40,020 bases of DNA, taken from positions 1 to 40,020 of the IMG/VR virus record IMGVR_UViG_3300046804_004376. One strand, 5' to 3'. Shown in pieces: positions 1,770 to 7,016 of this stretch (position 1 is the first letter of the stretch; each line of letters opens with the position of its first letter). The notes beneath the pieces were generated by a model. That model was not told the DNA's origin, made no database searches, and was given only the letters and a program-made list of their open reading frames with translations. A program made the translations under genes and the position numbers. This DNA is from a virus.

Positions 1770-2177
1770 TTATTTGATGTCAATAGATTTTGGCTTTTTT
1801 TCTTCTGGAATAATTCTTTCAATAATAATTGAAAGCATTCCATTTTCAAATTCAGCTCCAGTAACTTCCATATACTCTCCAAGAGCAAATGAACGTGTAA
1901 AAGAACGTGTAGCAATTCCTTTATGCTTGAATTCTACATCTTTATTTTCTTTTTCACCCTTGACAATTAAATTGCCATTATCTACTGTTACATTAATTTC
2001 AGATTTATTAAATCCCGCCAAAGCAAGTTCAACAAGATATGTATCTTCATCTTGTTTTATTACATTGTAAGGTGGATAATTGTTTTGTGTTGTTACACGT
2101 GTCCATGAATTAATGTTTGGCTGAAAGCCAATAAAAAAAGGATCATTAAAAAGATCCCATGCAAAAGTATTAGTCAT
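1770..2177 (-). CDS. hsp20: Hsp20/alpha-crystallin small heat-shock protein
   Basis: 135-residue small heat-shock protein, an ATP-independent holdase chaperone that forms oligomers. The alpha-crystallin domain spans about residues 37-125: a YLVELALAGFNKSEINV strand region, NGNLIVKGEKE, and the family GxLxI-type signature as GMLSIII. A short C-terminal tail PKSIDIK follows. The ATG at 2177 is chosen because AAGGAGA sits 6 nt upstream; a longer frame from an in-frame TTG would bury that site. Small heat-shock proteins are known in T4-like cyanophages and may help fold virion or host proteins. A structured leader and a hairpin lie just upstream. Confidence 0.92.
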   Translation of the reverse strand: MTNTFAWDLFNDPFFIGFQPNINSWTRVTTQNNYPPYNVIKQDEDTYLVELALAGFNKSEINVTVDNGNLIVKGEKENKDVEFKHKGIATRSFTRSFALGEYMEVTGAEFENGMLSIIIERIIPEEKKPKSIDIK

Positions 2178-2212: not shown

Positions 2213-2235
2213 AAAAATTCCCGAAGGCAATTTTT
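2213..2235 (-). terminator. weak terminator-like hairpin before hsp20
   Basis: Minus strand forms AAAAATT(G)CC-TTCG-GGAATTTTT: nine pairs with one bulged G and a UUCG tetraloop, ending in five U. Only two G-C pairs, so termination would be inefficient. Placed between the pseudoknot candidate and the hsp20 ribosome site, it could be an attenuator or an mRNA 5' stabiliser. Confidence 0.4.
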
Positions 2236-2247
2236 ATTTTTGAAACC

Positions 2248-2308
2248 CCAGCCGTTTGGTCTGTTATATACGCCTAACGCCAAAGTATAACTTCAGGGAC
2301 GGCTCTGG
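2248..2308 (-). ncRNA. candidate pseudoknot RNA in the hsp20 leader
   Basis: On the minus strand an outer helix AGCCGT/ACGGCT (2304-2299 with 2255-2250, extendable by two pairs across a bulge) encloses two interleaved helices. GTTATA (2291-2286) pairs with TATAAC (2268-2263), and TTTGG (2284-2280) pairs with CCAAA (2259-2255). Because the second helix begins inside the loop of the first and closes outside it, this is an H-type pseudoknot. It lies just after tRNA-Trp and about 70 nt before the hsp20 start. No coding frame is apparent and I could not match it to a named riboswitch or ribozyme. Confidence 0.5.
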
Positions 2309-2318
2309 AGTATTCGCA

Positions 2319-2385
2319 CGTCTCCAAAGATTTGAACTCTGACTAACGGGTTTGGAATCCGTTGTGCTACCTTTACACTAGAGAC
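2319..2385 (-). tRNA. tRNA-Trp(CCA)
   Basis: 67-nt cloverleaf, short because of a small D-loop. Acceptor GTCTCTA/TGGAGAC (one G-U), anticodon loop TTCCAAA giving anticodon CCA, T-arm CAGAG/CTTTG with loop TTCAAAT. The anticodon stem has an A-C mismatch next to the loop. No CCA tail is encoded. It stands alone, 1.2 kb from the main array. Confidence 0.85.
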
Positions 2386-2460
2386 ATATGGAGTAGTTTT
2401 TTACAGTCTTGCTCAGGACTATACCAGTTTTTTAGAGTCGCTGTCTCCCCCGACTTTTAT

Positions 2461-2490
2461 ATTATACCAAAAAATATAAAAAAATGTCAA
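2461..2490 (-). promoter_or_regulatory. promoter of tRNA-Trp / hsp20 leader
   Basis: Minus-strand TTGACA (2485-2490), 18-nt spacer ending in TGG, and TATAAT (2461-2466), so it has both a consensus -35 and an extended -10. The -35 overlaps the TGA stop of the SDR-like gene. About 75 nt of AT-rich leader with two small AGTC/GACT hairpins precede the tRNA. Confidence 0.75.
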
Positions 2491-5085: not shown

Positions 5086-7016
5086 TTTATCCTCCTTGTC
5101 ATGGCTGCTGCCACGAGATTAGATGCTATGATTACAGGAACAATTACTTCTTGCGCCTTTTCTCTTTGATCATCTGTCATATCTTTACCCCATTCAGATG
5201 GGCTAAGAACTTGTGTTAAATCTATATTTGTCAACGCTCCAATTGGATCTGACAAAAGTTTTTCTGCTGCAACTTCAGTTGTAGCATCTGCTAGTGTGTA
5301 GGGCATTGGGGCATTTAAATTAGCATTTGCTCTATCCCCGAATTCCTGTAATGCTTGTCCTACATTTGGATCTGCCTTAGCTAGTTCTGCTACCTTAGCA
5401 AGTTCTTCAGTTTTAATACCTAATGTTCCCGCAACAGCAATTTTTTGTTCTGGTGTTAATTTAGTTAATGTGTTAGAATTTGTAATATCAGCAATTAAAT
5501 TTGCCATTTGTGGAGATACGGGAGAATTATCTGTTTTATCAGGAATTACAACAGGATCTTGAGTTGGTTCAGGAGTTAGACTTGGATTTATATCCGTTGG
5601 CTGAGGTGAAGGCTCTGGTGAAGGCTCAACTGAAGGCTCAGGAGTTGGGTCTGGAGTTGGATCTACCGAATGTGTTGTTTCAGGTGTTGGCTCTGGAGTG
5701 GGATCGGTTGGTTTTGTTTGCTCAGGAGTTGGTGTTGGAGCAACAGGTTCAACAGTAGGTTCTGGTGTCGGATCTATTATTATTGTAGGTTCTGGTGTGG
5801 GCTGTGGTTGATTAGCTAATGCTTGTGCAATTGCTGCAGCAACTCTTTGTTTTTCTTCAAAATCCCATTGTTTATTATATTCTGTTTGTGCATCAATAAT
5901 TGCTACCTGCATTTCTGTTATTGCAGTATTATAGTTATTTGTAGCATTTGTTAGGTTTTGTTGAGCATTTGTTAGGTTTTCATTTGCCGTTGTTAGGTTT
6001 TGCTCAGCAGTTGTTAGGTTTTGATTATATTGAATTAATAAATCATTTTCTGTATTGTATGTAGATAAAGCATTGTTATAGTTTGTTTGAGCTGTTTGCT
6101 GTGCTAATACAGCTTGATTATATGCATCTATAACTTCTTGACTAGATCCTTGTCCGTAAGATAAATATGCTCCTGGAACTCCTGTCCATATTCCATTATA
6201 CCCCCAGCCAATAGTCATAATTCCTGGTCCACCGCCGTTATACCACCAGACTTCTAATTCTAAAGTTTTATCTGTTGAAGTATTAAAGTGTCTTGAATAC
6301 TGACTCCAAGTTCCGCCCTGTTCTATCCAGTTACTTATTTCCAATACACCATCAACATATAATTTAAATCCATCGTCTGTATATCCAGCAAAATACACAT
6401 CATTAATTTCTTCTGGAATTGTAAGTGTTGCGTTAAATATACCAATAATATTTTGAGATGATCCGCATATTGCACCATCTCCAGCATATGTATAAAAATA
6501 TGGAAGTGCACCTTGACACATTAGCCCAGCGTACTGAGATAAGTAAGCAATATTTCCACTTCTGGATAACGGGTAAATTCTAAATGAAACTCCTTGTGAG
6601 CCAGACGATGGTACGGGAGTATTTGATAAATTAATATTTGCTATATCTAAAGCATCTTGTTTGTTTTGCAGATTTGTATAGGCGGAATCTCTAACTGTTT
6701 GTTGAGAATCTACCGCAGATTGTGCATTATTTTTTGCTGTTGTTGCGGTTGCACCATCTGAAACAGCAGTATCATACGCAGTTTGTGCATCCTGCATATT
6801 TTGTTTTGCAGCAACTGCTGCACTATATTTGCTTTTTGCTAAATCTATTAGTTCTTGAGTTTTTGCCTGATCTGTAAGTTTTTGAACATCTGATTCAAGT
6901 TGAGATATCTGGCTGGCAGCAATTTGAAGTGGGTCATCGCTATAGGCGGGAGTTAAAAACATCCATCCAAAGCCCAGGATGGCTGTTAATGATAATCTCC
7001 ATAATTTATCTCCCAA
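5082..7016 (-). CDS. secreted PA14-like protein with coiled coils and PEPT linker
   Basis: About 644 residues. The N-terminus has a Sec signal peptide (hydrophobic LTAILGFGWMFL, cleavage likely after PAYS). Then come a coiled-coil region (about 30-120), a PA14-like beta domain (about 140-285; FAGYTDDGFKLYVDGVLEI and ELEVWWYNGG are characteristic), a second heptad-repeat coil, a Pro/Glu/Thr linker of PTPEPT units (about 405-495) and a C-terminal region. PA14 domains usually bind carbohydrates. I chose TTG at 7016 because GGAGG (7025-7029) precedes it and the signal peptide then starts normally. ATG at 7046 lies only 4 nt from the -10 box. It may be a cell-surface or lysis-related protein. Confidence 0.7.
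   Translation of the reverse strand: MGDKLWRLSLTAILGFGWMFLTPAYSDDPLQIAASQISQLESDVQKLTDQAKTQELIDLAKSKYSAAVAAKQNMQDAQTAYDTAVSDGATATTAKNNAQSAVDSQQTVRDSAYTNLQNKQDALDIANINLSNTPVPSSGSQGVSFRIYPLSRSGNIAYLSQYAGLMCQGALPYFYTYAGDGAICGSSQNIIGIFNATLTIPEEINDVYFAGYTDDGFKLYVDGVLEISNWIEQGGTWSQYSRHFNTSTDKTLELEVWWYNGGGPGIMTIGWGYNGIWTGVPGAYLSYGQGSSQEVIDAYNQAVLAQQTAQTNYNNALSTYNTENDLLIQYNQNLTTAEQNLTTANENLTNAQQNLTNATNNYNTAITEMQVAIIDAQTEYNKQWDFEEKQRVAAAIAQALANQPQPTPEPTIIIDPTPEPTVEPVAPTPTPEQTKPTDPTPEPTPETTHSVDPTPDPTPEPSVEPSPEPSPQPTDINPSLTPEPTQDPVVIPDKTDNSPVSPQMANLIADITNSNTLTKLTPEQKIAVAGTLGIKTEELAKVAELAKADPNVGQALQEFGDRANANLNAPMPYTLADATTEVAAEKLLSDPIGALTNIDLTQVLSPSEWGKDMTDDQREKAQEVIVPVIIASNLVAAAMTRRIK
5944..6027 (-). repeat. 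four 21-bp tandem repeats encoding coiled-coil heptads
   Basis: The core TTAGGTTTT (plus strand) recurs at 5951, 5972, 5993 and 6014, an exact 21-bp period. It encodes four seven-residue units of the type LT(T/N)A(E/N/Q)QN inside the PA14 protein, as expected for expansion of one heptad of a coiled coil. Confidence 0.85.

Follow-up and report, generated by a model that had tools for sequence, protein, structure and literature searches.

A conserved RNA element between tRNA-Trp and hsp20 in a phage genome belongs to a new RNA family linked to Abi_2/AbiF-type genes in Actinobacteria

The tRNA-Trp to hsp20 interval

The DNA analysed here (the window, a 40,020-base viral record) carries on its minus strand a tRNA-Trp gene followed by an hsp20 gene, and raises the question of what the structured sequence between them is and on what it acts. 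The original prediction read it as a single leader, an aptamer with a pseudoknot plus a UUCG hairpin as expression platform, controlling hsp20 in cis. The same stretch, letter for letter, is found in a near-identical 60,775-base record (L144), which a 14-mer search retrieved amid many chance matches. All the segments named in the prediction are present on the minus strand and covariation supports a structured RNA at this place, but the interval holds two different things, an RNA element (2313-2243) and a separate hairpin (2235-2213), which are listed with their surroundings in Table 1.

Table 1. Features of the tRNA-Trp to hsp20 region of the window
Feature	Position	Strand	Basis
Sigma-70 promoter TTGACA-18-TATAAT with TG extension, upstream of tRNA-Trp	2461..2490	-	Consensus scan, 12/12 matches; consensus only
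tRNA-Trp (CCA)	2316..2387	-	ARAGORN; Rfam tRNA 51.6 bits; its end directly precedes the RNA element
Abi-associated RNA element, whole motif	2243..2313	-	48 bits, E 4.9e-11 with model R1 (window not among its sequences); alignments A1, A7
P1 5' strand: ACUCCAG (2311-2305), AG bulge (2304-2303), CCGU (2302-2299)	2299..2311	-	Covariation in A3, A7
Internal-loop strand CCCUG	2294..2298	-	Invariant in A2, A3 and A7
P2 hairpin GUUAUA/UAUAAC with GGCGUUAGGCG loop insertion	2263..2291	-	P2 fully covarying in A3; subtype alignment
Conserved strand GACCAAA, not a pseudoknot arm	2255..2261	-	Kept in members without loop UUUGG
P1 3' strand: ACGG + CUGGGGU, then UU	2245..2255	-	A3, A7
hsp20-leader hairpin AAAAATTGCC-TTC-GGGAATTTTT, separate element	2213..2235	-	Hairpins of the displayed hsp20 leaders are homologous but differ in stem; TATAAT in 62/62
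hsp20 gene, ATG at 2177, SD about 2190-2184	1770..2177	-	ORF; 80 relatives

The element is a real, conserved and covarying RNA. Its family has the consensus CCCCRG-AA-CNGU-CCCUGUAA-(hairpin)-GAUCAAA-CNG-CYGGGG, and in the 24-sequence alignment A3 compensatory changes were found at 10 of the 15 pairs. In this alignment 96.1% of the cells were paired, as compared to 79.7% in shuffles and at most 40.6% in slid controls, and none of 500 shuffles matched the pairing. Alignment A7, which joins the window to Abi-linked copies, had 100% of its P1 cells paired. Because the search patterns fixed some columns, only pattern-free pairs count as covariation; neither the outer stem nor P2 was constrained in every scan. 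An independent covariance model recognised the window copy (48 bits), in which P1, P2 and the loop strands are conserved. By folding energy the structure does not stand out (leader z -1.35, element z -1.0); it is covariation that makes the case for it. Moreover, G-U cells outnumber A-C cells 16 to 1 on the strand of the neighbouring tRNAs, which establishes this as the RNA strand.

These alignments also bear on the helices first proposed. The outer AGCCGT/ACGGCT pairing does mark a helix of the conserved structure, although the family pairs in a slightly shifted register, CUCCAG with CUGGGG and then, after a 2-nt AG/AA bulge, CCGU with ACGG. GTTATA/TATAAC is the covarying P2. On the other hand, an H-type TTTGG/CCAAA pseudoknot is not supported: the complementarity arises in the window only from its long hairpin loop, and most members have loops of 3-8 nt that lack UUUGG, although the CCAAA/UCAAA strand is retained. 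The window copy departs from the family with a bulge of AG in place of AA and with a long P2 loop; it has this long-loop subtype in common with L205, L229 and L234, and its GACCAAA is GAUCAAA in most members.

The UUCG hairpin exists as predicted; it belongs, however, to the phage hsp20 leaders, whose conserved 5' hairpin it is, and not to the upstream element. In each of the 62 phage hsp20 relatives inspected a TATAAT box stands upstream of the gene, and the leaders displayed, whose hairpins were compared by individual folds, run from TATAAT through a hairpin with a differing stem and a conserved UGCC..GGG core to a short ribosome-binding-site stem and ATG. The upstream element was not found in these displayed leaders, and L001, the closest hsp20 relative by protein, has the hairpin without either tRNA-Trp or the element. 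Since the window leader is without a TATAAT box, its hsp20 may be driven by read-through from the tRNA promoter.

Other structures were noted in the same leaders and nearby. In the window (2240-2178, minus strand) and the L001-L080 leaders, the promoter-proximal hairpin is accompanied by a second one over the ribosome-binding site that pairs UUAUUC/GAAUAA or CUC/GAG and resembles an RNA thermometer. Just upstream of tRNA-Trp, both the window (about 2426-2390, minus strand) and L234 carry a hairpin GTCCTGAGNANGAC followed by AAAACTACTC. Ahead of a second tRNA array in the window stand a promoter-like sequence and an RNA (about 1200-1076, minus strand) with a 12-bp closing stem, GTACAGCAGACA..TGTCTGCTGTAC, around about 85 nt.

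Distribution of the family

With Rfam, the only significant matches in the window and family members were tRNAs and a cobalamin riboswitch, sub-threshold matches such as ncS54 being due to chance. The family is thus not in Rfam 15 and is a new RNA family. A large RNA of the GOLLD/ROOL type, considered given the tRNA neighbours, was set aside for lack of an Rfam match.

A related element between tRNA-Glu and tRNA-Thr in the tRNA array of L046 was the source of the search pattern. Pattern scans of IMG/VR yielded 29 different sequences on about 54 viral contigs, counting only sequences that also form the outer stem, and further copies came from contigs labelled Streptomycetaceae, Bifidobacteriaceae, Enteractinococcus and Mycolicibacter. 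Phage copies follow tRNA-Trp in the window, L234 and L403, other tRNAs in L046, L394, L396 and L406, and tRNA-like RNAs not called by ARAGORN in L218, L230, the L239 group and L249; the others lie at gene ends, by various unrelated genes. No neighbour gene is common to the phage copies, which argues for action in trans. A blastn search of INPHARED with consensus elements gave nothing convincing, and the pattern CCCAGAACCG..CGGCTGGGG returned only chance matches beyond the known members.

Among cellular genomes, the RNA was carried by 6 of 396 in a sample of the phylum Actinomycetota and by 13 of 396 in the order of genome G003, and by none in two other phyla, those to which a Pseudomonas and a Bacillus belong (349 and 348 genomes sampled). 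Within these samples, the cellular copies are confined to Actinomycetota. A weak match in G290 was set aside as probably false.

The tRNA-like structures (L218 about 6560-6735, L230, L239 about 1420-1510 and L249) have acceptor-like stems of 7 bp, for instance GGACUG/CAGUCC, and a T-loop UGCRAYY. Some are in arrays and some inside longer structured RNAs, and that of L239 is downstream of a predicted prohead-protease gene. In the tRNA arrays (L046 2458-2502, and L394, L396 and L406) a further similar stretch, GGAAC.. and then AGACUGGCU or AGUCUGGCU, stands after the RNA and before the next tRNA.

Association with Abi genes

In 14 of the 23 cellular or plasmid carriers, an Abi_2/AbiF-type HEPN gene was found within 1.5 kb of the RNA, often divergent and 30-40 nt away, and in the other 9 there was none within that distance. 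Control loci (116, amounting to 876 kb) contained no Abi gene. An Abi family gene begins about 31 bp from each of the three plasmid copies (Dietzia pI, Arthrobacter pA40H1 and Glutamicibacter pR912A). When RNA and Abi protein were searched separately in the 396-genome phylum sample, the RNA was found in 6 genomes, the protein in 10 and both in 5, in all of them side by side (hypergeometric P 6e-7 without the focal genome and 2e-5 without either seed genome). Similarly, 5 of 11 new RNA matches in a Micrococcales sample adjoin an Abi gene. Read by eye, several Abi-linked copies have a promoter-like sequence at or near the abi start codon that points at the RNA.

Two arrangements depart from the usual one. 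In L421/L425 and L422/L426/L435, the Abi gene is flanked on both sides by an RNA mini-variant of 42 nt, present in two or three copies, which recalls the two abiF motifs of RCd22. In Enteractinococcus (L289 890-1498) the RNA adjoins an AbiEi-type gene, not Abi_2, and three Abi_2-like genes are found elsewhere in that genome.

The Abi proteins match Pfam Abi_2 around its cut-off as well as PADLOC PD-T4-5 and AbiD, and conserve the HEPN motif RNxxxH. The best PDB match of the predicted fold was 8VZ6, the PbAbiF-ncRNA complex (Foldseek probability 0.99, E 0.12), with Z 8.9 against 6.3 for the next match, a score to be read knowing that helical bundles often give middling Z and that the model is modest (pLDDT 67.7, two sequences). 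A profile sequence search in PDB was weak, with 8VZ6 at E 0.68. By its Abi_2 domain, RNxxxH motif and predicted AbiF fold, the partner protein qualifies as a putative AbiF/Abi_2 toxin.

The phages present a different picture. Pfam Abi_2 matched none of 30 viral records, and the A4 family profile none of 9, while three actinobacterial genomes and a plasmid matched the latter as positive controls. None of 93 viral loci fetched by RNA patterns held an Abi gene, a pattern-limited scan of IMG/VR for Abi returned one distant relative, and neither the window nor its 60.8 kb relative contains the toxin gene of a full toxin-RNA module. There is thus a strong, if not final, case that the phage copy is an orphan RNA and not a full Abi module; it holds for the record fragments searched, so that a toxin gene farther away is possible.

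Proposed role of the RNA

AbiF toxins are HEPN RNases held by a dimer-binding RNA (PMC12373285; reviewed in PMC12737573), and RCd22 neutralises AbiF in trans in a stem-dependent manner (PMC12373285). At E 10, the Rfam abiF model (RF03085) matches nothing in G000 or G005; its gathering cut-off is 37 bits and the positive control, phage phiC2, scored 37.6 bits. Nevertheless, comparison by eye with the consensus of RF03085, a family that includes RCd22 of C. difficile phages, brings out a similar order of parts: a GC-rich outer stem of 6 bp, a 5' adenosine bulge, a short hairpin and a 3' CAAA. Both are linked to Abi_2/AbiF genes, and the 42-nt mini-variants of G221 come near the 37 nt of RF03085. 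The element differs in its inner CNGU/ACNG stem and invariant CCCUG loop, in being divergent from the toxin gene whereas RF03085 is in the toxin 5' UTR, and in its occurrence in Actinobacteria and in phages, in the latter without toxin. This similar part order, in the face of a model without match, suggests a new variant of AbiF RNA that is not RF03085. The partner recalls PbAbiF-AbiFr (PDB 8VZ6), a type III-like toxin with an RNA antitoxin, in its predicted AbiF-like fold and HEPN motif, but it is only about 16% identical and its RNA partner is putative.

We believe that the best reading, with a probability of roughly 0.6, is that of a new actinobacterial AbiF RNA antitoxin variant whose phage copies are orphans that would neutralise the host Abi in trans. 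By analogy with RCd22/AbiF and PbAbiF-AbiFr, the RNA in cells and plasmids would be an antitoxin that binds and silences the Abi toxin dimer. The phage, with the RNA only, would probably transcribe it during infection, jointly with tRNA-Trp, using the promoter at 2490-2461; the RNA may then bind the host Abi protein and block abortive infection. We infer transcription, binding, neutralisation and benefit to the phage from linkage, fold and precedent. Being without toxin and behind a tRNA, the phage RNA probably disarms the host defence, and an antitoxin mimic best accounts for a phage with the RNA alone. A DNA region of the lactococcal phage sk1 is said (Rince, 2000, cited in PMC12737573) to protect another phage from AbiF.

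Other readings fit parts of the evidence. It is unlikely, in our judgement, that the phage copies are specialised 3'-end elements (terminators or exonuclease blocks) behind tRNAs, ncRNAs and operons, with the Abi-linked copies terminating an Abi-associated RNA and the conserved loop binding a non-Abi cellular factor. Many phage copies do start 4-20 nt past the stop codon of a gene or immediately behind a tRNA, and GGGGUUUU forms the end of several. A position at a gene 3' end with a U-run, as in many phage copies, fits a terminator as well. However, termination needs no extreme conservation of the CCCUG and UCAAA loop strands, the copies in the tRNA arrays of L046, L394, L396 and L406 have no U-run and are followed by further tRNAs, and the recurrent Abi linkage would be left unexplained. 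That the same RNA is found in phages and beside Abi genes would also agree with an opposite effect, the RNA triggering or being sensed by the host Abi that binds it, or serving as decoy for another HEPN system. This we consider quite improbable, because a trigger would be counter-selected, yet the RNA persists in many unrelated phages, and the AbiF RNAs tested elsewhere inhibit (PMC12373285).

We find very improbable, too, a mobile or DNA-level hairpin (a REP or IS200-IS605-type end, or an integration site) that does not act as RNA. The bulged palindrome is scattered on mobile elements, and in G221 and G258 several copies surround Abi genes, but the excess of G-U over A-C on one strand, the promoter-like sequences just upstream of Abi-linked copies and the lack of any transposase association seen all speak against it. 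Finally, a riboswitch or attenuator acting on hsp20 in cis, as first proposed, retains hardly any chance. It was suggested by the position in the window, and hsp20 leaders do carry conserved hairpins. The element's absence from the leaders of relatives argues against aptamer and expression platform as one unit, and most copies are not near hsp20: some stand between tRNAs or follow tRNA-like RNAs, others are found where unrelated genes end or, in cells and plasmids, beside Abi genes. In L046 the element lies within the tRNA array, and hsp20 follows about 500 nt downstream, behind a promoter of its own.

For the antitoxin reading there is a precedent in phages. PhiTE evades ToxIN via a pseudo-ToxI RNA (PMC3475682), which is likewise a phage non-coding RNA that resembles a defence antitoxin and comes without toxin; it belongs to another toxin family, however, and PhiTE escape mutants expanded repeats, while here single structured copies are found in many phages. 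The cyanophage S-CREM1 (PMC9964418) has many tRNAs and an annotated AbiF-type sRNA, and no Abi gene is mentioned in the portion of that report used here; its sRNA differs in belonging to RF03085, and in its cyanophage host genome. With respect to the tRNAs, Cas13a is described as cutting tRNA anticodons (PMC11042736), and the tRNA neighbourhood would be meaningful if Abi did the same, as tRNA cleavage by Abi may explain it. We advance tentatively, and at a little under even odds, the broader proposal that phage-borne orphan AbiF-type antitoxin RNAs are a widespread RNA anti-defence in phages of Actinobacteria, often expressed from tRNA operons, so that one transcript would both replace tRNAs and disarm a tRNA-cutting HEPN RNase.

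The new RNA family predicts an antitoxin of Abi_2/AbiF toxins in Actinobacteria, and the results suggest that many environmental phages may carry that antitoxin alone. If this is true, antitoxin RNA mimicry would be a standing phage strategy and not a rare escape mutation, phage tRNA arrays would be tied to RNase-based defence, and the finding would bear on AbiF as the proposed ancestor of Cas13.
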